This document shows, one piece after another, positions 6,848 through 38,071 of a DNA stretch of 43,833 nucleotides. Made by a program: the position numbers and the translations under genes. The notes beneath the pieces were generated by a model. It ran no database searches. It saw nothing but the letters and a program-made list of their open reading frames with translations, and had not been told where the DNA came from. The stretch covers positions 1 to 43,833 of IMG/VR virus record IMGVR_UViG_3300003691_000018, one strand, 5' to 3'. The stretch is from a virus. The stretch's first letter is position 1; each line of letters begins with the position of its first letter.

Positions 6848-9800
6848 ATTTTATTTGCTCGATTTAAAATATACATTTCCGTTGCGAATTTCTTATAATT
6901 AAAATTCTCTGCCTTATAAGGTTTTAATCCCTGATATCCTTTTGCTATCTGTTTTGAAATCTCATTACTAATATTAATATCAAATGATTTTCCCGCCTGT
7001 ACATCTGTCATTAATCCTTTTTCATTCTCTACAGATAAAGCCATCGCAGAACGCATAATTGCCTCTTTTGGGGTAAACGTTCCCGCTTGATGTACCTTAT
7101 CCCCCTTATCCATATCAATCACAGTATTTCTATTATTAAACATTTCTAAACGTCCTGATTTTCTCTCAACAATTTCTTTATAATTTACACCTACAGCATC
7201 ATTAATTAAAGCGAATCCCTCGTGCGTTCCTGATAAATGCCCCTCTTTAAATGCGGGCATTTTCTGAGATTTAATAACACCTATTTCAACTGCTGTTAAT
7301 CCTGTCATTATTGCCGCACCTACAATCCCCGCGGGCCACCCAAGTTCCGCAAATGTTCTTACTACTGCGGACGCTCCATTTACTAAAGCCATAACAACCG
7401 CCAAATCTTGGTCTTGCTTAAATTGTTTTTCTTTTAATTTCCTCTTTTTCTCATCAAATTGGGTTTCAATTAACAATCGCTGATTCTCTGTTAACTCCTC
7501 ACTATCTAAAATTTGGTTTCTCTGAGCCTCTAATTTATTTAATTCAGCACTATGTCTTTGCGCCTGTGCATTTGCCATAAATGATAAAGAGGCAACCAAC
7601 GCATTTTCAACAATATTTATAGCCTGTAATTGTTTCGCAAGTTTAAATTCCTCATCACTCTTAAAATCTTCTTTCTTTAAAGTTAAATAATCATTGAAAT
7701 TCCCTAAATCAATACCATAAAGACTTTTTAACCTATCGAAAGAACTTTGTATCATATCATACTCTCTGTCCTTTGCATTCTTAAGCATCCTTTCTTTTGT
7801 GAGTAAAAATTCCTCATAATCTGCCAATTCCTCATCCCCATCAATATCAACAAAACCAAATTCAAAATCAAAAGGAGTTGCATTTATAACATCATTGATA
7901 TCTATGTCTTTTAACTCATCTCCTAATTCTAAAAACCTCTCATAAGAACCATTTAAAGTGTCTATTCTATGCTGAACAGCAGAAATTGCTCTTTCAAATA
8001 TTTGGAATGATTCCTTTGTGTTTGCGGTTTCATTTTGTAATTTTTTTAATTTCGTAATCTGAGCCTGTAATGCTTTTACCGTTCCCTGAATTACAGCATC
8101 AGCATCCTCTTTTTTAACCTCTTTTTGTTCCGTTATTAAAGATTTTATTTTATCAGTCAATTCATCATATAATTTTGCTGATTCATTCAATCCCACATTT
8201 AATTTTGCCCACTTAGGCGAACCCTTTTCATATTCTTGCATTTGGTTTGCAAATTGAATCGTGGTTTGTTTTACAGCCTCTCTTTCATTTTCTAATAAAG
8301 CGATTGTTTCATTAATAGCATTTTTTCTAATCTCCTGTATCTTTTCCTCATCCTTAGTTTCTGCTATTTGTGCCTTTGCCTTTTCTTTAATTTTATCAAT
8401 CTCGTCCTGTATTCTTTTATTTGAAATTTCCCTACGTTTTTCAGCACTCTCTTTCCCCTCCTCGATTGCTTTATTTAAATTCCTCTGAGCCTTTGCCGCC
8501 GAATTTGCCCCCTCGCCAAAAGCGACAAATAAAGCTACCGCAGAAACCAATAAACCGATTAATGCACCTATAGGATTTGATTTTGAAGCGACATTAAAAA
8601 GCCTCATTGCCTTTGTTGCTTTTCCTAATCCCCCCGCAAGAGCAATTTTCGCTAACCTCAATCCTGTAACCAATCCGATATAAGCCCTCGTACCTACAGA
8701 AATAGCGATTAATGTTCCTTTATAGATTAACCAAGCCTTAATTGCTTTTTTTACAAAATCAATTACTTTTTCTAAATTTTGGGCAAGTGATTGAAATCCT
8801 TTTTTTAATTTATCCCCTATTCCATTAGCTTCATTTTCTCTTAATATAACACCTTGCCAAGCAGAATTTAAAAGAGCCAAAGCCCCTGAAAGTGTATCAA
8901 GCTCTTTCTCTGCCATTTCCTTTGCTGTCCCCCTTGCATTTTGCAAAGCAACATCTAATTCATCAATCCTTTCAGTATTGTCTGCTATTACTAAAGCAGA
9001 TACTGCCGCCCTTTTACCAAATATCTTATTAGCTGTAGTTAATTTATCTGTGCTTTTTCTAATTTTTTCGAGAGCCTTTTCATAATCAATACCTCTCTTT
9101 GCACTTTCAATAAAAATGTTTCTTAAGGATGTCGCCCCTGTAGATGTTTCGATTCCCGCATCTGACAATTTCCCCAACGTAGCCACAACTTTCGTGAATG
9201 GTACATTTAAAGCATTTGCCGCCCCCAATACAATCGGCAATCCTGTTGATAATTTCTCAAAAGTCAATGCACTTTTTGCGGTTGCTAAAGACATTACGTC
9301 CATTATTTCAGGTGCATCTATTGCTGAAAATTCCGCCATCGAATTAACAACTGCCCCCGTCAATTCTGCTGTTTCTGCTAACTGAGAGTTCATCGCAATA
9401 GAACCCTCTATAGTTGATTCTGTTAAGGCTATAATCTGCTCCTGTGAGAACCCTAAACGAGCATAAGCAATTTGTAACCCCACAACCTCATTTGCTGTCT
9501 TAACCGTAATCGCCCCCAATCTTTCAGAATCGGTTTTAAGGTCTTTAATTTCCTCTTGTGTTTTCTGTAATATTCCTGAAAGAGTTGCATTCGCTTTTCC
9601 ATAATCGATTATTGTACGAATACCATTTCTCATTAACTGAGCAAATATCATCGCCCCTCCCATTAATCCAAACGCACCCGCTAAACTTCTCAACGTGCCA
9701 CCTAAACCACCTAATGCACTTCTGTAATTTCCGACATTTCTCTGTGATTGACCTACAGCCCTGTCAACCCTTTTTAACGAAGCATCTAACTTTCTTGTCT

Positions 9801-18951: not shown

Positions 18952-18968
18952 TATTTCTAATGCTCTTT
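18941..18968 (-). terminator. Strong rho-independent terminator
   Basis: An 11-bp perfect stem (AAAGAGCATTA at 18943-18953 with TAATGCTCTTT at 18958-18968), 4-nt loop, then T residues on the minus strand. It ends transcription after the signal-peptide gene at 19002 and isolates it from the portal gene. Confidence 0.88.
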
Positions 18969-19001
18969 CAGATATTAACCTAAATAAATTTTTATTATGA
19001 T

Positions 19002-19313
19002 TTATGCAATCTGTCTACCTGACATCCCGCCCGATGTGCCATTGGCAACTATCTTTAGGATGCTATCGTCTTTTAAAAGGTTTGTTTTTTGTTCTGTTAC
19101 GAAGTTCCTATCTGAGATTTTTATCTCCTTTTGGCTTAATGCTTTTTGGATTTTATATTCGATTGCTACATTTATAGCCTGAATACTAATCACAGAAACA
19201 TCATTCTGCATTACATTTTCTATATCATCATTTCCGATATCTACATCTTGCCCGATAGGGAAAGCAGATAAAGAAAATAACAACATACATAAAATTAAAA
19301 TTGATTTTTTCAT
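19002..19313 (-). CDS. Small exported protein (moron-like)
   Basis: The 103-aa product begins MKKSILILCMLLFSLSA, a standard signal peptide. The mature part is about 85 aa, polar, and has no recognisable domain. An upstream TTG at 19349 lies in the -7 element, so the ATG at 19313 is chosen. The gene has its own promoter (19347-19378) and a strong terminator (18941-18968), forming an independent unit between the small-gene block and the portal. It may alter the host envelope, for example superinfection exclusion; that is inference. Confidence 0.7.
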   Translation of the reverse strand: MKKSILILCMLLFSLSAFPIGQDVDIGNDDIENVMQNDVSVISIQAINVAIEYKIQKALSQKEIKISDRNFVTEQKTNLLKDDSILKIVANGTSGGMSGRQIA

Positions 19314-19346
19314 AAGGTTTTCATTTTCGATTTTTAAATCATTATT

Positions 19347-19378
19347 CAAATGTAGTGAATTTATTTTAAACCTAACAA
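19347..19378 (-). promoter_or_regulatory. Promoter of the exported-protein gene
   Basis: TTG (19376-19378), 21-bp spacer, TACATTTG (19347-19354) on the minus strand. The -33 part lies in the final codons of the YopX-family gene. Start of transcription would be near 19341, about 28 nt before the ATG at 19313. Confidence 0.6.
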
Positions 19379-19771
19379 CTCAGGGTTTTCATTAATGTTT
19401 CCTATTACTTCACAACTATATTTTTCAGGCTGAAATTTAGATATAACATCAAACAATCTTTTCTCATAAAGACCATTATAACCGCTAATCTTACAATTAA
19501 TCCAATAAGAACCATTTTTAAAATAAACATCTCCTTTAATTTTATCCCTAACCATGTTATTACCATAAGTAACGGAATGAATTACAATATCCCCCTTATA
19601 TATCTCAACTCCGTTTTTGTCTTTAAGTCCTGTGTATTGTTCTAATATCATTTCAGGGAATAGCTGACCATAATACCCCTGAACTAATCCTGTTTTAATT
19701 CTAAAACAATAATCCTCATCTTGATAACATTTTGATTCAATATCCCACGCTCTAAATTTTATTTCTTTCAT
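19361..19771 (-). CDS. YopX-family phage protein
   Basis: The 136-aa product begins MKEIKFRAWDIESKCY and contains LEQYTGLKDKNGVEIYKGDI (about residues 43-62), the hallmarks of the YopX family, found in many phages and Bacteroidota mobile elements. The C-terminus has the usual EVIGNINENPELL. The family has a barrel-like fold and no firmly known function. It is the last gene of a run of small early-type genes. Confidence 0.85.
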   Translation of the reverse strand: MKEIKFRAWDIESKCYQDEDYCFRIKTGLVQGYYGQLFPEMILEQYTGLKDKNGVEIYKGDIVIHSVTYGNNMVRDKIKGDVYFKNGSYWINCKISGYNGLYEKRLFDVISKFQPEKYSCEVIGNINENPELLGLK

Positions 19772-19775
19772 AATC

Positions 19776-19931
19776 TCATCTTTTATTTATATTCAAATCA
19801 ATCTTTCGTTTATCATTTCTCCTATACTCAATCCATCCTGTTATAGGATTCCATCGTCCTGTCCAAAAATTCACAGGACATGGATAAGATTCTGTTGATG
19901 ATTTTGTTGCTCTAATTTTGTTTGTGCTCAT
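19776..19931 (-). CDS. Small basic hypothetical protein
   Basis: A 51-aa frame opens at 19931. The product is Arg/Lys-rich with several Trp and Pro residues (FWTGRWNPITGWIEYRRND). It starts 4 nt after the previous stop and ends 4 nt before the YopX gene, so the placement supports translation. Function unknown. Confidence 0.55.
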   Translation of the reverse strand: MSTNKIRATKSSTESYPCPVNFWTGRWNPITGWIEYRRNDKRKIDLNINKR

Positions 19932-19935
19932 AACT

Positions 19936-20091
19936 TTATTTTATAACTATTAATTTTCCCATTTTAATAAATGATTTTATTCTCTTTTCATTCCCCTTTT
20001 CAATCGCCTCTAATATAAGATATTCATATCTGTAATTTTCAGGAATCAAAAAGATTCTCTTTGCGGGTTTAAAGCAAGTTCCATTTTTCAT
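19936..20091 (-). CDS. Small hypothetical protein
   Basis: The frame extends to an ATG at 20151, but the ATG at 20091 has the familiar leader CAGATAT and overlaps the upstream 53-aa gene by only 23 nt, so the shorter 51-aa form is preferred. The product (FKPAKRIFLIPENYRYEYLI, then a Lys-rich helix) has no recognised domain. Confidence 0.5.
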   Translation of the reverse strand: MKNGTCFKPAKRIFLIPENYRYEYLILEAIEKGNEKRIKSFIKMGKLIVIK

Positions 20092-20230
20092 ATATCTGTT
20101 GTTTAAAGAATAATAAATTTTCAAATGAAAACTTCGTCCTATACTTTCCAACTATATCGGCAGTCCTGTTTAAATCGGTCCTACTCTTACAATTCCTGAC
20201 TATCGTTCTAATCTCTGAGGGCTTATACAT
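20069..20230 (-). CDS. Small hypothetical protein
   Basis: A 53-aa frame begins 2 nt after the stop of the DUF4031-like gene. The product (MYKPSEIRTIVRNCKSRTDL) is basic and helical, and recalls short phage domains with a C-K-x-R-T-D/E pattern. It overlaps the next small gene in another frame. Tight coupling supports it, but no function is known. Confidence 0.5.
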   Translation of the reverse strand: MYKPSEIRTIVRNCKSRTDLNRTADIVGKYRTKFSFENLLFFKQQIYEKWNLL

Positions 20231-20232
20231 AA

Positions 20233-20544
20233 CTAATTAAATCCATTATAATCAATTTCTTGTTGCCAAAAATGGTCTTTAGGCGATGCTGTTCCTCTCG
20301 GCTCATCTTCTATAATTATTTCAGCATATTCAGGATGCCGAATAATTTCAATTATATTTTTGATATCTACAATTTTACAAAGTTTCTCTATTTCATCAAT
20401 CCTTTTTTTTGGGATATCATAATGGTTCTTATGAAACCAACATTTTTTAATATCCAATTCCTCAGCCATCCTATGTAAATTTTCAATAGAATACGGTACG
20501 CATATTAAATGCCTCTTTTCGTCTGTTACATAAATTAATTTCAT
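20233..20544 (-). CDS. DUF4031-like protein
   Basis: The 103-aa product starts MKLIYVTDEKRHLICVPYS and has a later CWFHKNHYDIPKKR. This matches the layout I associate with DUF4031: a short beta strand, a helix, then WFH...HYD. The family is small and of unknown function, found in phages and bacteria. It starts 2 nt after the previous stop. Confidence 0.6.
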   Translation of the reverse strand: MKLIYVTDEKRHLICVPYSIENLHRMAEELDIKKCWFHKNHYDIPKKRIDEIEKLCKIVDIKNIIEIIRHPEYAEIIIEDEPRGTASPKDHFWQQEIDYNGFN

Positions 20545-20546
20545 AC

Positions 20547-20780
20547 TTAAAATATTTCTAATTGGTCGCCAATCTGAGGCTCAAATCCTTTTAACTCCTT
20601 TTGATAATAATTTACGTGTCCCTGTAATATCGGGCAAATTACTAAATAAAATTCTGCATCATATCCCATCTTAATATCATAATCGCTGAGAGCATCATTT
20701 CCCTTTTCCTTAACCTCATTTAACCTATCTAAAGAATGTTGTAAATCTTTCTTTACATCCTCGATTTTACGCTTTTTCAT
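20547..20780 (-). CDS. Hypothetical helical protein
   Basis: The 77-aa product is helical and charged (MKKRKIEDVKKDLQHSLDRL), with a hydrophobic middle and an acidic C-terminus. It overlaps the upstream gene by 4 nt, typical of coupled translation. Not recognised. Confidence 0.6.
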   Translation of the reverse strand: MKKRKIEDVKKDLQHSLDRLNEVKEKGNDALSDYDIKMGYDAEFYLVICPILQGHVNYYQKELKGFEPQIGDQLEIF

Positions 20781-21097
20781 AACGCCTTATCGATTGCTTT
20801 CATTAATCTTCCGTGCATAAAAGATTCTTTTTTAGTCCAACCTTTCCTTGCCCTCTCATCCCTTAATATAGAAACCTCATTTATTAAAGCCTCTAATAAC
20901 TCAGGTGCCGATGCTATTAATTTAGCATCTGCCTGATTTCTTACACTTTCGCAAATCAAAAGCCCCCCATAATAATCAACCTCACTATGCCCCATCGCTT
21001 TATCCTTGTCATTAATTTGTTTTAAGTTATCTGAGATTACAACCCCTATATGTTCTCCTATACTCCAATTCCCTTTTGTTCCTTTAAAATTTTCCAT
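20777..21097 (-). CDS. Conserved phage protein
   Basis: The 106-aa product has GNWSIGEHIGVVI near the N-terminus and ADAKLIASAPELLEALI at about 56-72. This pattern recurs in many small phage proteins of unknown role. It is followed by an overlapping 77-aa gene. Confidence 0.65.
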   Translation of the reverse strand: MENFKGTKGNWSIGEHIGVVISDNLKQINDKDKAMGHSEVDYYGGLLICESVRNQADAKLIASAPELLEALINEVSILRDERARKGWTKKESFMHGRLMKAIDKAL

Positions 21098-21108
21098 CCT
21101 TATCGATT

Positions 21109-21414
21109 TTAAGCCTTATTTCTATAGACTTTATTATTATTATATAATTTACTACTAACTTCTATTTCTCCATAGCGAGAGGTCTTAATTTCAATCCCTA
21201 AACGCTCATTTATAATATCCCTCTTTGTCATTTCCTTTGGACTTAAGAAATTAATAATTACAACTGTGAGAATCGGTAATAAAGCAGATATAATTAATAT
21301 CCATTTTACAACCCCTGTTTCTAAGGTATCTGCCCCCGCATAAGCGACAATCATTAAAACTATTAATGCTATTAATCCTCGTCTTTCTGTACTTGTGATT
21401 TTAAAGTTTTTCAT
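21109..21414 (-). CDS. Two-span membrane protein
   Basis: The 101-aa product has two likely membrane helices at about residues 13-29 and 36-57, then a cytoplasmic-like tail (LSPKEMTKRDIINERLGIEI). A holin is possible from topology, but the gene sits with early small genes, not next to a lysin. Other membrane roles are equally likely. Confidence 0.6.
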   Translation of the reverse strand: MKNFKITSTERRGLIALIVLMIVAYAGADTLETGVVKWILIISALLPILTVVIINFLSPKEMTKRDIINERLGIEIKTSRYGEIEVSSKLYNNNKVYRNKA

Positions 21415-21446
21415 AATATTTATTTTAAATTATTTCTATTAAGTGC

Positions 21447-21599
21447 CTATACAAATTGAACACTTTTTTTTGTTTCCGTATTATAAATATACAGCCCTCT
21501 TCCCGAATCATTTAATGTGTCTGTATGGGATAACATTTTTTTAAATGTCTCGGTTTCCTTTATTATTTTTAAATCGCTATTTAATAATTGATATTTCAT
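21447..21599 (-). CDS. Small hypothetical protein
   Basis: A 50-aa frame from the ATG at 21599, with an AATTAGAT leader of the AGATATG type seen before other genes. The product (MKYQLLNSDLKIIKETETFK) is helical at the N-terminus and ends in a beta-like segment. It begins 2 nt after the previous stop. Confidence 0.55.
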   Translation of the reverse strand: MKYQLLNSDLKIIKETETFKKMLSHTDTLNDSGRGLYIYNTETKKSVQFV

Positions 21600-21601
21600 A
21601 T

Positions 21602-21982
21602 CTAATTTAATTTTGTTTTTCTATTTCTAAACATTCTCTGTATCTCATCGTATGTGATTCCATAAGGCTCAAGAACCTCAAATGTTCTTGCTATATCTCC
21701 ATCATACCAAGCCTCATGATTCCCTAATTCTCTGAGGATAATTTTTTCTTTTCCATTCTCTTTTAAATCCTGAGCCATTCCCTCTTTTTGAATCTTGTCT
21801 AATCCATTGATTAAGGTTTCAACATATTCTTTATTGGTAAGCATCCCGCCTCCCATATTAACATACTCCACATTCTGTTTTTTCCCCTCATTAAACTGCT
21901 CCTTTGAGAAAGCAAAGAAAGTCCCTGTAAGGTTAAATAATTCCGTTTGTTTGTCCTGAATGTAATCTTGTAAATATTTCAT
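21602..21982 (-). CDS. Conserved phage protein (DUF7659-like)
   Basis: The 126-aa product has FNLTGTFFAFSKEQFNEGKK near the N-terminus, GGGMLTNKEYVETLINGLD in the middle and ELGNHEAWYDGDIARTFEVL near the C-terminus. I recall the pattern from small phage and plasmid proteins named DUF7659, with moderate certainty. The start is preceded by TATAGCAATT, one of the recurring start boxes. Confidence 0.5.
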   Translation of the reverse strand: MKYLQDYIQDKQTELFNLTGTFFAFSKEQFNEGKKQNVEYVNMGGGMLTNKEYVETLINGLDKIQKEGMAQDLKENGKEKIILRELGNHEAWYDGDIARTFEVLEPYGITYDEIQRMFRNRKTKLN

Positions 21983-22003
21983 AATTGCTATAGTTTTTAA
22001 AGG

Positions 22004-22381
22004 TTATCTATATCCATTTTCCGCAAATCTTATTTGCTCATCTTGACGTTTATCATCTTCCCATGATTGAATAGCTTTATTTATCCATCTTGGTGCGAAC
22101 TCCCATGTTGGCTCAATTATTACATTGTTCCCATTACATTCTGTGCATACTTGGTCAAATGCTCCACCCTGATACGCTTCCATTGAATCATAATCTCCAT
22201 CCTCTCGAATATCATCCAACATTAAATTCTCATCTAAATCATTTCTAAAATGAGAACCTGTACCATTACAAGTTGGACAAACTATTCTTTTCGCATCTAA
22301 TAAAATTCCATTAGTGCCTGAATTTTCAAAATTATAATTTTCATTGTACTCAAAAGATTCGTGATAAAATAAAGTTTTCAT
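22004..22381 (-). CDS. DnaJ-type zinc-finger protein
   Basis: The 125-aa product has two CxxC knuckles of the DnaJ central-domain type, CPTCNGTG at 35-42 and CTECNGNN at 79-86, so it probably binds one zinc. No J domain is present. Phage proteins of this kind are common and uncharacterised. The start is preceded by CTATAGCAAT. Confidence 0.7.
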   Translation of the reverse strand: MKTLFYHESFEYNENYNFENSGTNGILLDAKRIVCPTCNGTGSHFRNDLDENLMLDDIREDGDYDSMEAYQGGAFDQVCTECNGNNVIIEPTWEFAPRWINKAIQSWEDDKRQDEQIRFAENGYR

Positions 22382-22392
22382 ATTGCTATAGT

Positions 22393-22515
22393 TTAAAAAT
22401 TAATGATTTGATTAAATCTCACTACATAAAGAGAGATATTGATAATTGTTTGATAGTTTGCTAAAACCTCTAAGATTGTTTGTTTTAGACTGATTAAGAT
22501 AATTAATGATTTCAT
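22393..22515 (-). CDS. Possible 40-aa peptide
   Basis: A short frame starts at ATG 22513-22515 just after AAATATAGCAAA, the same start box used by several larger genes, and under the operator at 22570-22589. The product is hydrophobic (MKSLIILISLKQTILEVLA). It may be a real small protein or a leader peptide for the zinc-finger gene that follows. Coding potential alone cannot settle it. Confidence 0.4.
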   Translation of the reverse strand: MKSLIILISLKQTILEVLANYQTIINISLYVVRFNQIINF

Positions 22516-22763
22516 TTTGCTATATTTTTGTTTGATTGCTACGTTAAATATAACACTTTTATTTCATACTATAAAGAAAAATCTTTATAAATATGTAATT
22601 ATTTTATAACATTAATATTATCATTATTTAAAACATCCCTTATTTAACGATTATCTATTTTGATTAAATACTCTGCCAAATCAATTTATTTCTTTTATTA
22701 ATATACTTTTATAATAGAATGATATTTCTCTCTTAAACACCCTTTATTTATGCTTAGTGAATC
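22516..22763 (-). promoter_or_regulatory. AT-rich control region with operator
   Basis: This stretch has no gene. It contains the perfect palindrome at 22570-22589, then GTTATATTTAACGTAGCAA downstream on the minus strand, which parallels the leader upstream of 37118-37312. The remainder up to 22763 is AT-rich, without a convincing -33/-7 pair or a stable hairpin. Confidence 0.5.
22570..22589. promoter_or_regulatory. Operator-like palindrome
   Basis: TATAAAGA-AAAA-TCTTTATA: two perfect 8-bp arms and a 4-bp centre. It is the best copy of the recurring 20-bp element. Confidence 0.6.
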
Positions 22764-22964
22764 TCAAAATAATTCTATCTGCTCCCCTGTATTCTTAAGG
22801 GCATTTATTTTGAATTTCCAAAAATCCCGATATTGTTTTCTTGACTTAACATGAATCTTTTTTATTTCATCATTCCAACTATCGGTAATCTTTTCAGAAA
22901 TCGCTTTCTGTAGATTCATTTCAGCAGATTCTAAACTCTTTTTATAAATATCAATCAAAGCCAT
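22764..22964 (-). CDS. Hypothetical helical protein
   Basis: The 66-aa product (MALIDIYKKSLESAEMNLQK) is helical and charged with a C-terminal EQIELF. It overlaps the upstream gene by 14 nt. Unrecognised. Confidence 0.55.
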   Translation of the reverse strand: MALIDIYKKSLESAEMNLQKAISEKITDSWNDEIKKIHVKSRKQYRDFWKFKINALKNTGEQIELF

Positions 22965-23145
22965 TTTCCTCTTTTTTTACTACCTGAAATGTATTATCAA
23001 AAGGAACGAATGTTCCTCTTTTTGGTCTATCTGTATCTGTGTTCCAACAATCATAAATCCAACCGCTCGGCACTCTCATAATAACCATCCCAAAATCTGT
23101 TGTAATACTCTCGTGTAATCCTAAATTATAAATTGTTTTTTTCAT
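22951..23145 (-). CDS. Conserved small phage protein
   Basis: The 64-aa product contains RVPSGWIYDCWNTDTD and GTFVPFDNTFQ, a compact beta-like module common in Bacteroidota phage genomes. Function unknown. The leader ends AATAGATATG. Confidence 0.6.
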   Translation of the reverse strand: MKKTIYNLGLHESITTDFGMVIMRVPSGWIYDCWNTDTDRPKRGTFVPFDNTFQVVKKEENGFD

Positions 23146-23155
23146 ATCTATTTAT

Positions 23156-23257
23156 TTAATTTATTTTATAATCTATTTTACATCCGCACCAAGTAGCTAA
23201 ACCATTTTCAGAATTAAAACACTTTCCACATTCCTCGCATTTAATAATATAACTCAT
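23156..23257 (-). CDS. Tiny zinc-ribbon protein
   Basis: A 33-aa frame with CEECGKC near the N-terminus and CGC further on, consistent with a metal-binding knuckle. The leader is AAATAAAAAGATATG. It is probably translated, since it fills the gap between two genes exactly. Confidence 0.5.
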   Translation of the reverse strand: MSYIIKCEECGKCFNSENGLATWCGCKIDYKIN

Positions 23258-23268
23258 ATCTTTTTATT

Positions 23269-23613
23269 TTAATAATAGTGCATATCGTCAATCATATCAT
23301 CTCTCATTTTCTGAGTGATTTCAGGAATCTCTTTAATCGAACTAAAGCCATTTACCTGTGTCATTTTCTCGCCCCGATATAGATACTGCTTTCCTATCTT
23401 AATAACCTCGCTATAATAACGCCTATACCCTATAGAATAAGAAATGCAAACTGTGTCCAACTTATCGAAATACTCTTTTTCTAATTTTGATAATTCCTCT
23501 TTGATTTTTCGATTAGTTCCAAAAGACTTTTTAAAAACCGCCTTATTAGATTTAGATTTCAACTCCTTTTTTAATTCTGTTTTCTGTAAAAATTCTTTTA
23601 ATGTCGTTTTCAT
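23269..23613 (-). CDS. Hypothetical protein
   Basis: The 114-aa product has a Lys-rich N-terminal helix (LQKTELKKELKSKSNKAVF) followed by a Tyr-rich beta segment (SIGYRRYYSEVIKIGKQYLY). Its start has the TATAGCAAAT box. It follows a terminator at 23627-23650. Not recognised. Confidence 0.6.
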   Translation of the reverse strand: MKTTLKEFLQKTELKKELKSKSNKAVFKKSFGTNRKIKEELSKLEKEYFDKLDTVCISYSIGYRRYYSEVIKIGKQYLYRGEKMTQVNGFSSIKEIPEITQKMRDDMIDDMHYY

Positions 23614-23626
23614 ATTTGCTATAATT

Positions 23627-23650
23627 TAAAAAGGAGGCTTTCGCCTCCCT
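23627..23650 (-). terminator. Rho-independent terminator
   Basis: GGAGGC (23633-23638), TTTC loop, GCCTCC (23643-23648), with a T run on the minus strand. It ends the one-gene unit 23669-24211. Confidence 0.85.
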
Positions 23651-23668
23651 ATTTGTTTGTTTATTCTT

Positions 23669-24211
23669 TTAGAATGATGGGTCTTGGTATCTTTCCATTA
23701 CTCCAAATATGATTGAAACCTTACTAAATTCCTTATATTCCTTAGTAATCCCTTTCACTAACTTTAATTTAGTGTTTATCCCATTTTCCTCGCCATCGAT
23801 TAATTCTTTATAAGGTACATCTAAATAATCACTCCATCCATAACCATACTGCTTAACTAATCTGTTAACTAACGCTTTTATAATTTTTACCTCTTTCCAA
23901 ACTTTCCCCCATTGTCCCTTTTTACTATTCCATTCTAAATTATATGTATGGTTATTCTCATCACTTGAATAAATATATTGCTCATCCCCATAAGATTCAC
24001 CTATATGCTTATAACTCATTGCCCGAATCACGCAACTCATTCCATCCTCAGAAACCTCAATAACTTCATAAGCACTCCTATCTGAATACAATAAAATCGT
24101 TGCTCCTTTTCCTACTTCGGGTTGAGTTGAATTATTACCCATCATTTGATTGATAAAACCTCCCGCTACTCCTACTTTTCTTGTCTGTCTTTTTGTGTTT
24201 GAATTTGTCAT
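23669..24211 (-). CDS. Conserved Bacteroidota phage protein
   Basis: The 180-aa product begins with a basic tail, then VGVAGGFINQMMGNNSTQP (about 13-31) and GKGATILLYSDRSAYEVIEV, a pattern that I recall from many uncharacterised Bacteroidota phage proteins. The gene is a one-gene unit with its own promoter (24243-24273) and terminator (23627-23650), which suggests early, strong expression. The start is preceded by AATATAGCAAA. Confidence 0.65.
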   Translation of the reverse strand: MTNSNTKRQTRKVGVAGGFINQMMGNNSTQPEVGKGATILLYSDRSAYEVIEVSEDGMSCVIRAMSYKHIGESYGDEQYIYSSDENNHTYNLEWNSKKGQWGKVWKEVKIIKALVNRLVKQYGYGWSDYLDVPYKELIDGEENGINTKLKLVKGITKEYKEFSKVSIIFGVMERYQDPSF

Positions 24212-24242
24212 TTTGCTATATTTTTAATTAATTTCGTTACCC

Positions 24243-24273
24243 CAAAGATAAACCTTTTTTTAATTCTATACAA
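24243..24273 (-). promoter_or_regulatory. Promoter of the 180-aa protein gene
   Basis: TTG (24271-24273), 20-bp spacer, TATCTTTG (24243-24250), read on the minus strand. A degenerate operator copy (24267-24286) covers the -33 part. The leader ends in the TATAGCAA start box. Confidence 0.65.
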
Positions 24274-24286
24274 TTTTTTCTTTATA
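24267..24286. promoter_or_regulatory. Degenerate operator-like element
   Basis: One arm is exact (TCTTTATA, 24279-24286); the other matches 5 of 8 (TATACAAT), with the same 4-bp spacing. It overlaps the -33 part of the promoter. Confidence 0.4.
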
Positions 24287-24493
24287 AGTTTTTTGGGTTT
24301 GTGATCAAATTATCAGGAAATAAGATTTTTATTAATTACAATCTCAGTTAGTATAGTAAGTTATTATGCGTTCTTTAGATTCGGGTTGAGGGTACAGTCT
24401 TGCTAATAAAAGGGAATTGATAAAAATTTCCTCCTATCAGCAATCCTGTATATTTTATTCTGCTATCAATGAGTTCGAGCCGAGTAATACAGT

Positions 24494-24600
24494 CCTATTC
24501 TTTTGAAATAGGCACATACCTAAATATGTGATTGCCCTTACAACTACGCCCAAAACTTGAAAATGCGTCGATTATCCGTTGGTTAATCATCCCTGTAAGG
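24494..24600 (-). other. Structured noncoding block
   Basis: Three consecutive foldable units lie here: CCTATT/AATAGG (24494-24512), CACATA/TATGTG (24513-24530), and a possible three-way junction closed by CCTTACA/TGTAAGG (24536-24542 with 24594-24600) that contains ACGC/GCGT and GATTA/TAATC hairpins. No convincing gene runs through. It could be a structured RNA or a set of protein-binding sites. The part from 24301 to 24493 shows no gene or strong structure that I can name. Confidence 0.4.
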
Positions 24601-24628
24601 TGGGTTATTTTAAAACGATTTAGAGCAT

Positions 24629-24684
24629 AAAAAAACCTCCTAAACTCCAACAGTCGACCAAGAACTATTTTTGCTTAAGAGGTT
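24629..24684 (-). terminator. Terminator with a pseudoknot option
   Basis: AACCTCCTAAAC (24634-24645) pairs with GCTTAAGAGGTT (24673-24684) over 12 bp including two G-U pairs; a run of T follows on the minus strand. The 27-nt loop holds GACCAAG (24656-24662), which can pair with CTTGGTC at 24708-24714, giving an H-type pseudoknot or an antiterminator. Confidence 0.65.
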
Positions 24685-24720
24685 TAACCTATTATTTTTT
24701 TTAGTTACTTGGTCTAACTA
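24629..24720 (-). ncRNA. Candidate small RNA after the terminase gene
   Basis: About 92 nt between an exact TATATTTG -7 element (24726-24733) and the terminator. There is no open frame of note. The two interleaved stems suggest a compact pseudoknotted RNA. It might be a free small RNA or the end of the terminase transcript. The -33 part of the promoter is weak. Confidence 0.4.
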
Positions 24721-24725
24721 TGCCA

Positions 24726-24733
24726 CAAATATA
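24726..24733 (-). promoter_or_regulatory. -7 element before the candidate small RNA
   Basis: Reads TATATTTG on the minus strand. The overlapping TATAAAGA (24730-24737) is one half of the recurrent operator, with a shifted second half TCTTATA at 24744-24750. No TTG is found at the ideal distance. Confidence 0.4.
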
Positions 24734-24757
24734 AAGAGGATTATCTTATAAAAAAAA

Positions 24758-26218
24758 TCAATCATTAATTTCAACCTCAAAATCAGCATCCCTATTATAT
24801 AAATCAAAATAAGACCTCATTAAAAATGTGTCTCTATAATCAGGGGAACGCCCGATATTTTCTTTTATCTTAATCTTAGGTAATAATTGTTTCTTTCCAT
24901 CTGCATCAATCTTAAAAGTTTTAAGCTGTCCTAATTCCTCAATCATCTCATCCATCTCATTATCTGAAAAGACCTCAGCATCTACATATAATTGATGTTT
25001 ATTAATCTTATTTGCTAAATGATATCCGCACTGAGATTGTAAATTGTTATACTGAGGCTTTTTAAATTCATATCCTGTCATTTCAGGAAAAGGAGTAGCC
25101 CCATTTACAAAACCAATTATCCCGCAATTATCTACAACCCCCGAACCCAAACCATCTTGGTCGGCAATACAATAATGTGTTGGTATTTGATACTTATATC
25201 TGAAAAGATTTATAGCCTGTTGAATCTCTGTCAATAGACTTAAATCAAAAACTTTTTTTGCAATTACTTTCCAACCACTCCAAACAAAAATAACTGCCTT
25301 ATCTGAGCCTAATCGAGCAACATCTGCTGTTAAATAATGATTTCCGCTTACTACATGATTATTCTTAAATATAGCATTTATATCCTCTAATTTACATAAA
25401 GCTGTAGGGTCGTCATCAAAATCAAAATCCCCCTTAACTTGTTTTTGGTATTCTGAATTACTCATCGTACCATCCTTAAACTCAATCTCTTTTTCTGCTA
25501 CCCATCGCCTCGCCTCTTCGCCAGGATTATCAGTAGGCAAACTCCTTACAAATTTTCTTGTAACCTTTTCCTTTCCTATTTTAAATGGAATCCAATAACG
25601 CCTATTTACGTGGGTTTTTGATGGATTAAAACACTCCATTAATTTACCTTTCAGATTATACTTAGAATTAAAATGTGTTCCAACTCTCTCGCCTACCTTT
25701 TCAACAATCTTTAAATTAACGTGTTCCGATTGGTCAATAAAAGCCTTTGTGATTTCTAAAGAACCATAAGCGGTTGCCTCAGGGTCGGATGGTGCCAACT
25801 CCAAATTCTTAGCCATTATCATTGATTCAGTTTTAATAAAAGTCAATTCGTGCTTTGAGCCATTATAAACATAATCGACATCCGCAACAAATCCGAAATT
25901 ATCCAACATTCTTATTAAGGTTTTCCAAGTGGTTTGCCATAACATTGTGAGATTTTTTCTCCCTACTAAATAACGAGTTTTTGGATATGCCCAACTTTCC
26001 ATAATTGAAGCCAACGAAATCAAAACCGATTTCCCACCTCTCGCCGCACCTCCAAACCCCACATAAGTCGTTTCATTATCATTGAAATATTTTAATGCCT
26101 TAACCTGTTTAGGGTGTAGTGTAACGATTTCCCCTGTCTCCACATCTTTATAAGAAATAAACTCATATAGCCCCCTCTTATAGAGTTCAACATTTGTATA
26201 AAATCTCTTGTTAATCAA
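24758..26218 (-). CDS. terL: Terminase large subunit
   Basis: The 486-aa DNA-packaging motor contains an ATPase with Walker A GFGGAARGGKS at 54-64 and Walker B AFIDQSE at 159-165 (D162, E165), and an RNase H-like nuclease with likely metal ligands D299 (LTADVARLGSDK), D353 (IADQDGLGSG) and D460/D463 (SPDYRDTF). It follows the small subunit by 62 nt. The start appears to be TTG at 26216-26218, supported by AAAGGAAAG 7 nt upstream. Confidence 0.95.
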   Translation of the reverse strand: MINKRFYTNVELYKRGLYEFISYKDVETGEIVTLHPKQVKALKYFNDNETTYVGFGGAARGGKSVLISLASIMESWAYPKTRYLVGRKNLTMLWQTTWKTLIRMLDNFGFVADVDYVYNGSKHELTFIKTESMIMAKNLELAPSDPEATAYGSLEITKAFIDQSEHVNLKIVEKVGERVGTHFNSKYNLKGKLMECFNPSKTHVNRRYWIPFKIGKEKVTRKFVRSLPTDNPGEEARRWVAEKEIEFKDGTMSNSEYQKQVKGDFDFDDDPTALCKLEDINAIFKNNHVVSGNHYLTADVARLGSDKAVIFVWSGWKVIAKKVFDLSLLTEIQQAINLFRYKYQIPTHYCIADQDGLGSGVVDNCGIIGFVNGATPFPEMTGYEFKKPQYNNLQSQCGYHLANKINKHQLYVDAEVFSDNEMDEMIEELGQLKTFKIDADGKKQLLPKIKIKENIGRSPDYRDTFLMRSYFDLYNRDADFEVEIND

Positions 26219-31436: not shown

Positions 31437-31691
31437 TTATTTTGCTACGAATATGATTTCGAGATTATCTCTAAGCGAATTTCCTCTCAGCTTAAAAATA
31501 TATTTTTCCTTAGTTCCTGAAAGAACTTTGTCAAAATGCTTTTTACTTAATTTCTCGCCTACAATATTTTTATATTTTCTCGCTGTAGTTAGATAAGTAT
31601 ATCTTACATCTTGCTCTTTCCATCTAATAAGGAAATTTCTGTTTATCTCTGCGTGTAATGGATTGTTTGATTTTAAAGTCATTTGAAACAT
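31437..31691 (-). CDS. Hypothetical protein under an operator-controlled promoter
   Basis: The 84-aa product has a mixed fold with a basic middle (LTTARKYKNIVGEKLSKKHF). Its promoter at 31721-31750 is the best in the window and is covered by the palindrome at 31725-31744. The leader carries two TATAGCAA boxes, one right before the ATG. The protein is unrecognised, but the layout suggests a tightly controlled first gene of the unit that includes the coiled-coil gene. Confidence 0.6.
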   Translation of the reverse strand: MFQMTLKSNNPLHAEINRNFLIRWKEQDVRYTYLTTARKYKNIVGEKLSKKHFDKVLSGTKEKYIFKLRGNSLRDNLEIIFVAK

Positions 31692-31720
31692 TTGCTATAT
31701 TTTTAATTTGTTTTGCTATA

Positions 31721-31750
31721 CAAATATAAAGATTTTTCTTTACATAACAA
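31721..31750 (-). promoter_or_regulatory. Consensus Bacteroidota promoter
   Basis: TTG (31748-31750), 19-bp spacer, TATATTTG (31721-31728) on the minus strand, the ideal spacing and -7 sequence. The 20-bp palindrome (31725-31744) fills the spacer, as for a repressor site. Confidence 0.8.
31725..31744. promoter_or_regulatory. Operator-like element, identical to 37364-37383
   Basis: TATAAAGATTTTTCTTTACA. Arms match 7 of 8. It lies between the -33 and -7 elements, so a bound protein would block RNA polymerase. Confidence 0.65.
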
Positions 31751-31918
31751 CTACTTTTTTTCTTTTATTTGACAGAATCCTATTTGATAATTTATATATG
31801 TCCATCCTTTTTTTCTTTTCAGGAACTTAGCCTGTTGAATACTCATTATCTTTTTGACTACCGTTTCCCCATTTATAGCAACAACCTCGATATCGGTAGA
31901 GCCTTTTAAATTACTCAT
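31751..31918 (-). CDS. Small basic protein
   Basis: A 55-aa frame (MSNLKGSTDIEVVAINGETV, then FLKRKKGWTYINYQIG). Its ATG shares one base with the stop of the upstream gene (TAATG), a sign of coupled translation. It ends right before the promoter at 31721-31750. Function unknown. Confidence 0.6.
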   Translation of the reverse strand: MSNLKGSTDIEVVAINGETVVKKIMSIQQAKFLKRKKGWTYINYQIGFCQIKEKK

Positions 31919-37117: not shown

Positions 37118-37312
37118 CTATAATTTAAATTTATTAAGTAATTCGGTTGTAGTTTTAAGAGCCTGTTTTCTTGTTAAAAATACTTTTTGATTTAAACTTA
37201 TAAAACCCTCATTTAACTTAACAGTAACAAACCAATCGAATTTAGTTATTATTCCTTTTGAAATTGTAATCGTTCCGCTTTTAAATTTGTAATTGTAAAC
37301 AGATACTTTCAT
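37118..37312 (-). CDS. Small beta-rich protein, first of an operon
   Basis: The 64-aa product (MKVSVYNYKFKSGTITISKG) is beta-rich. Its leader holds ACGTAGCAA and AATATAGCAAA, and the operator at 37364-37383 lies upstream. It opens the unit that runs to 35013. Function unknown. Confidence 0.55.
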   Translation of the reverse strand: MKVSVYNYKFKSGTITISKGIITKFDWFVTVKLNEGFISLNQKVFLTRKQALKTTTELLNKFKL

Positions 37313-37363
37313 TTTGCTATATTTATTTATTTGCTACGTCTAAGATATAACAATTATTTGATA

Positions 37364-37383
37364 TATAAAGATTTTTCTTTACA
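37364..37383. promoter_or_regulatory. Operator-like element, identical to 31725-31744
   Basis: TATAAAGATTTTTCTTTACA, the same 20-mer in the same orientation. It lies about 50 nt before the start of 37118-37312. The -7 match downstream (TATATCTTAG) is imperfect. Confidence 0.6.
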
Positions 37384-38071
37384 ATTCATCAAAAACAATT
37401 TCAGTCTGCATCTCCATTTCTTTAGCCATTCCCATAATATCGCCCTCAAATCTTCGTAATCTGTCAACCTCAAATTCAAGCCCCCGAATTGTTTCTCCCT
37501 GATTTAATGAAAGATTATAAAATTTATGTAAAAGAATCGCCTTAAAATCGTGCTTTGTTCTGTGTAGAATAGGGGCTTGTTTTATCATTTTTAGATTTTG
37601 AGAATCATCGATATAATAAAGTCCCGCATATTTTGGAATCTCAGATTTTTTTATAAGGTCTTTTGGGCAAGCATAATAAAACCTATTAGGGGTGAATATA
37701 GGCTTAAAATCTATTGATGTATTTAATTCTTTAAGCGAACTATACCTTTCCGTTTGCTTTGCCTTAAAATCGCTTGTATGCCCAATTCTTTTTATAACCT
37801 GAGTTCCGTAAGTGAACTCATATTTTAAATATTTTCTAACAGTAAACTTTTTCTTTCCATCCAAAGCAAGCTGTAATTCCTGATGCTTTTTTATTTTCTT
37901 GAAATCAGCCCGAAAATCCCCCCTCGACATCTTGACCTCAATTTCGTGAACCAACCCACCTTTTGAGATAGCAAAGAAATCCGATTCCCATCGAAAGATA
38001 TAAGTATTCGTCAACATATAATCGTGCGATAAAGAGGCTCTAAGCGTGTTATAAATATCCCTTACTTTCAT
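37379..38071 (-). CDS. MmcB-like PDDEXK-fold protein
   Basis: The 230-aa product has the PDDEXK-like core ESDFFAISKGGLVHEIEVKM (about 29-48) with D, E and K in order, then PNRFYYACPKDLIKK and EIPKYAGLYYID further on, the traits of MmcB-type DNA-repair proteins and related phage nucleases. It may act in recombination or host DNA processing. Upstream and downstream genes overlap or abut it. Confidence 0.65.
   Translation of the reverse strand: MKVRDIYNTLRASLSHDYMLTNTYIFRWESDFFAISKGGLVHEIEVKMSRGDFRADFKKIKKHQELQLALDGKKKFTVRKYLKYEFTYGTQVIKRIGHTSDFKAKQTERYSSLKELNTSIDFKPIFTPNRFYYACPKDLIKKSEIPKYAGLYYIDDSQNLKMIKQAPILHRTKHDFKAILLHKFYNLSLNQGETIRGLEFEVDRLRRFEGDIMGMAKEMEMQTEIVFDEL

Follow-up and report, generated by a model that had tools for sequence, protein, structure and literature searches.

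A putative family of kissing-loop attenuators in Bacteroidota phages, with a divergent copy next to a terminase gene

Background

Plasmid antisense attenuation and kissing control, of the ColE1 RNA I/RNA II and pT181 type, make use of complementary hairpin loops of 6-8 nt in element-specific pairs, two features that are shared by the leader RNAs described here. In the latter, by contrast, both loops belong to one RNA and are a few tens of nucleotides apart, one of them is part of a terminator and there is no antisense gene. The lambdoid antitermination RNAs (nut boxB and the PUT of HK022) are likewise found in phage early leaders, as a hairpin upstream of a terminator and in several copies per genome. 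Whereas nut and PUT are sequence-conserved within a phage, the copies of the present family differ in sequence and keep their self-complementarity alone. The pRNA of phage ø29 also has kissing loops, and in the window studied here the proximity of a packaging gene is a further likeness; it differs from our element in size, no Rfam match was obtained and the family as a whole has no packaging link. To our knowledge little is known about the timing of gene expression in Bacteroidota phages.

The remaining relatives in design are the bacterial attenuators and leaders that end in an intrinsic terminator, such as Bacteroid-trp (RF01692, listed in PMC2864571), which share the order of promoter, structured leader, intrinsic terminator and start codon. 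The kissing-loop leaders differ from them in having no visible leader peptide or alternative antiterminator arm, in the pairing of the terminator's apical loop with the loop of a 5' hairpin, and in the hypervariable sequences of these loops. The family would work like a leader attenuator and pairs like plasmid kissing control, and it has the membership features of neither. No description of a leader with a kissing terminator was found in the open-licence literature, and the family is apparently undescribed so far.

The element behind the terminase gene

The window, that is, the whole stretch of DNA that was analysed, is an entire virus record, 43,833 bases long, whose genes lie on the minus strand, and its relatives are Bacteroidota phages. 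The gene upstream of the element matches phrog_979 (terminase large subunit, E 9.5e-8), and its product, TerL, gave 37% against the TerL of Bacteroides phage Versailles (tblastn). It is followed by 546 nt (24212-24757) that make up the largest ORF-free gap on the ORF map of the window, the longest ORF beginning with ATG in it having 31 codons. The original prediction had pointed to about 500 gene-free nucleotides as a rarity in this genome; the gap is not unique, others of 461, 395 and 382 nt being present elsewhere. When the small ORF is counted from a TTG its 51-aa product had no family match and it was not taken as a gene (Table 1).

Table 1. Features in and around the gap behind the terminase gene of the window
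Feature	Position	Strand	Basis or remark
Large terminase subunit gene	24758..26218	-	Immediately upstream of the element
Bacteroidota-type -7 promoter element TATATTTG	24726..24733	-	Sequence
5' hairpin, 6-bp stem UAGUUA/UAACUA, 7-nt loop GACCAAG (24714-24708)	24702..24720	-	MFE and centroid fold
A/U-rich linker, 16 nt	24686..24701	-	Family median 19, middle half 16-21
Putative kissing interaction, loops 24714-24708 x 24662-24656	24656..24714	-	7/7 Watson-Crick pairs
Intrinsic terminator with U7 (24635-24629)	24629..24685	-	Fold
ATG CTC TAA	24620..24628	-	Directly 3' of the U-tract, at the start-codon site of real genes in other members
Non-coding remainder of the gap, including local hairpins 24513-24530 and 24494-24512	24251..24619	-	Folding
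31-codon ATG ORF	24495..24590	-	51 codons counted from TTG at 24650
Second -7 element TATCTTTG	24243..24250	-	Promoter of the next gene, 24211-23669

The exact -7 element that had been predicted is indeed present, 5 nt before the stem of the 5' hairpin, the same spacing as in many family members. The stretch of 92 nt from 24722 to 24631 folds with -24.3 kcal/mol compared with -13.4 +/- 2.6 for its shuffles (z -4.1; 0/200 as stable). Two interleaved stems had been proposed for it, and both complementary segments are real. However, GACCAAG and CTTGGTC are exact complements and coincide with the two 7-nt hairpin loops, so that the arrangement is better described as two hairpins with a kissing-loop pair. 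The 12-bp stem proposed for the terminator is also real, with 13 bp in its lower part, a 3x3 internal loop, 7 bp above it and the 7-nt apical loop CUUGGUC. After the U-tract there is an ATG at the expected place, but the reading frame meets a stop once two codons have been read, and no gene starts there.

A strict form of the element, defined as promoter, 5' hairpin, loop complement of at least 7 nt and terminator, gave one match in the window and two in 300 shuffled windows. Taken by itself the window element is thus only moderately improbable as a product of chance, which is unlikely, though not overwhelmingly so.

For the rest of the gap, the larger structured block that had been envisaged was not supported beyond chance. 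Its 373 nt as a whole reach a folding z of -1.9, and the stretch with the proposed three-way junction (24536-24600) and the two hairpins downstream folds no better than shuffled sequence (z -0.44, equalled by 61/200 shuffles), for which reason these structures were rejected. Moreover, the sequence after the terminator showed no convincing similarity to the genes found downstream of other members.

Relatives and family search

The phage records contained no close DNA relatives of the window phage. Scans with TerL or the portal as single proteins found nothing and alignments were required; one of capsid proteins retrieved 37 loci sharing the head module. In most of them the terminase is closely followed by the portal, so that the site of the element is not a fixed one, and nearly all relatives with this terminase/portal module have no element there. 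The exception of interest is locus L213, in which the same arrangement stands 28 nt 3' of the TerL stop codon, with promoter TATATTTG, 5' loop CTCAGACC and terminator loop GGTCTGAG. Its loop sequence differs from that of the window and the complementarity is kept; L213 is the sole comparison for compensatory loop change at the window's own site.

A search for a promoter, a 5' hairpin and a terminator with complementary loop gave 10 matches in 2.19 Mb against 0, 0 and 0 in three shuffles. In addition, a feature outside the search criteria emerged, namely that the U-tract leads into the start codon of a following gene. With the gene start added to the descriptor there were 22 matches in the first set of loci (0-1 in shuffles), and 36 (0-2) in loci fetched later by helicase and HNH alignments, where the strictest level gave 24 against 0. 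The signal was weak in prophage loci fetched with the terminase (4 against 0-2), Sphingobacterium genomes being among them. Only the combined descriptor was clean: loose scans for loop complements without the promoter were full of chance matches, and the DNA pattern GACCAAGTNACT...CTTGGTC was discarded, its 19 matches in viral contigs all being chance occurrences in unrelated sequence.

The curated family comprises 53 leaders in about 44 fetched Bacteroidota phage loci, with a median of 97 nt from promoter to U-tract and 5-49 nt from there to the start codon. None of the 53 has a TAnnTTTG between its terminator and the ATG, and in four cases the upstream gene is divergently oriented. The window copy shares with other members a promoter shortly before the 5' hairpin, a loop complement of at least 6 nt and an A/U-rich linker of about 13-22 nt. 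At the gathering cut-off, neither the window nor the leaders of ten member loci matched a family of Rfam 15. A subfamily model found nothing in 300 genomes of the host families, a weak negative given that only 15 candidates were scored per genome; in the control for this search 6/6 records with known members were detected.

Covariation of the loop pairs

The original prediction had made its case depend on compensatory base changes in relatives, and these were found, the kissing pairs covarying strongly across the family. A set of 51 leaders was assembled blind to kissing, the sole criteria being promoter, 5' hairpin, terminator and gene start. Among these, 25 had a loop complement of at least 6 nt (swapped loops: mean 1.2, maximum 5) and 16 one of at least 7 nt (swapped loops: mean 0.15). 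In an alignment of six close homologues of one subfamily, both sides had changed in 16/22 pairs.

A covariance model of the HNH subfamily, R1, was built from the two hairpins with the kissing left out. It found 16 members, six of which were its training set and ten outside it; several of the ten were already known from the kissing-aware scan, the model itself being kissing-free. It also found Polaribacter phage P12002L, which had no part in the training, with 56.5 bits. The kissing pairs of the 16 were 97.2% intact, with 31 cells changed on both sides in a compensated manner, while controls with slid partners paired at 26-55% and those slid by one base at 26-29%. In the window R1 gave no match at E<=10, and the window copy is therefore assigned to the family by plan and not by sequence homology.

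The apical loop of the terminator has a median of 8 nt in the family and the helix that closes it also covaries. In genomes with several leaders the loops differ, and cross-pairing between leaders is at most 4 nt. The idea that the linker must span stacked helices was rejected, the correlation being negative.

Genes behind the leaders

The genes downstream of the leaders encode NUMOD4/HNH endonucleases, ResIII/DEAD (SF2) helicases, a GIY-YIG homing endonuclease, a primase/helicase-like protein, a replication initiation O-like protein (in P12002L) and small unknown proteins. The shares of helicases and HNH endonucleases are inflated because both gene types served as bait, and the association of leaders with these genes is partly by design, most known members having been collected near them. 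Two members come from isolated phages, Flavobacterium phage 11b, where the leader precedes PHG11b_62, and P12002L, where it precedes the replication protein. In the phage of locus L181 there are three leaders (763+, 2513+ and 15811-) with three loop pairs, which precede an SF2 helicase, an unassigned gene and a NUMOD4/HNH endonuclease.

No gene follows the element in the window, in L213 or in locus L063, and behind the L213 and L063 elements lie a few hundred apparently non-coding bases. The non-coding stretches of the three, when compared, had no shared sequence. At such sites the attenuator may conceivably govern an RNA that encodes no protein. In L063 the kissing terminator is followed by a repeat-rich stretch of about 400 nt (8400-8800) in which no gene is evident; it includes a partial repeat in inverted orientation around 8705-8762 and is possibly a non-coding RNA.

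Proposed mechanism and alternative explanations

The plan, the complementarity of the loops, their compensatory changes and the position before start codons can be read directly from the sequences. Taken together they make it probable, in our opinion, that the window element belongs, as a divergent copy, to an undescribed family of leaders that act in cis in Bacteroidota phages, which we propose to call kissing-loop attenuators. Transcription would start a few bases 3' of the -7 element, and the nascent RNA would comprise the 5' hairpin, a short linker and an intrinsic terminator placed just ahead of the served gene's start codon. The 5' loop and the apical loop of the terminator, complementary over 6-10 nt, would form a loop-loop helix, and most transcripts would presumably stop at the terminator. 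Since no promoter was seen between terminator and ATG in any leader and four upstream genes are divergent, the promoter of the leader is apparently the sole one; the genes are apparently reached through the terminator, from which we infer an attenuator.

The complementary segment of the terminator lies in its loop and not in an arm, and the enclosing helix covaries, which means that kissing and terminator can coexist, unlike what is seen in a classical antiterminator. This compatibility leads us to favour a clamp-like role for the kissing, which would promote termination until the clamp is opened, its release letting the gene be read; the loop-loop helix may steady the terminator hairpin or speed its formation. 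The window copy we read as a divergent and orphaned leader. As the gene served is absent there, only a stable RNA of about 90 nt or its read-through is to be expected.

Such an RNA could also be pictured as free-standing and trans-acting, compact and nuclease-resistant, with the neighbouring genes incidental to it. Its own promoter and terminator, the terminators without a following gene in the window, L213 and L063, and the shielding of both ends that a kissing closure would provide all agree with a small RNA of this kind. Nevertheless we hold it to be unlikely, if deserving serious attention, since the 53 other members have their U-tract at 5-49 nt from a start codon with no intervening promoter, and the loops lack the sequence conservation to be expected of a seed with a fixed target. 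The pseudoknotted RNA of about 90 nt with its own promoter and terminator that had been predicted from the window thus stands in its plan and in its compensatory changes, but it is normally a 5' leader before a start codon (promoter, 5' hairpin, kissing terminator), which makes an attenuator the most likely reading and not a free-standing RNA. It is more doubtful still that there is no special RNA at all, only an ordinary promoter and terminator whose loops are complementary by chance. The A/T-rich genome contains many hairpins and the window copy alone has a chance expectation of about 0.7% per window, but the whole plan recurs with compensatory loop changes, including at the same site in L213.

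The position directly 3' of TerL, and the kissing loops that ø29 pRNA also uses, might suggest an RNA or signal for packaging (pRNA-like, or a cos/pac element). This is very improbable: Rfam, which contains a model of the ø29 pRNA, gives no match, nearly all relatives with the same module have no element at the site, and the family is mostly found beside other genes. A riboswitch for a small ligand usually takes the form of a 5' leader with a terminator at its end, before genes of metabolic type, but here no invariant pocket is seen, loops, stems and linkers vary with only the complementarity kept, and different loops occur within one genome, so that we give this explanation hardly any credence.

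In ColE1 the Rop protein reads a loop-loop helix regardless of its sequence, and by analogy one might speculate, as a rather unlikely extension, that a single phage-encoded factor that reads structure switches every kissing-loop leader of a phage at the same time. This would define an attenuator regulon by RNA shape and not by sequence, the loops of each leader being kept distinct so that the messages do not pair mutually.

The family offers a recognisable and testable regulatory RNA in dozens of Bacteroidota phages, two of them isolated, before replication and homing endonuclease genes, and the strong compensatory change in the kissing pairs makes the structure testable by loop swapping. Should the loop-loop helix control termination, this would be attenuation without ligand, leader peptide or antisense RNA, and the leaders would also provide a natural set of kissing loops without cross-pairing.

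Other features of the genomes

At five L382-like terminase neighbours (L168 11115+, L178 3758+, L182 10674+, L173 7002+ and L175 3616+), the gene end and the following terminator share CAAGTAG/CTACTTG or a similar complement in several related phages; this may have no connection with the family and merely coincide with conserved coding sequence.

In the window, small ORFs and gaps fill the roughly 6 kb between terminase and portal (18952-24757), two genes that are adjacent or nearly so in most of the relatives sharing this head module. A search for tRNA genes found none. The glycosyltransferase encoded at 26879-27619 matches phrog_842 (beta-glucosyl-HMC-alpha-glucosyltransferase, E 1.2e-16) and is possibly a DNA modification gene.

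The window also contains four copies of a promoter and 5' UTR block on the minus strand (24211-24300, 37312-37400, 31691-31780 and 22515-22600), which are 74-79% alike and stand directly before genes. The block is A/T-rich with a -7-like element, then ...AAAAATATAGCAAAATG, and is a repeated promoter of early or late type of the window phage.
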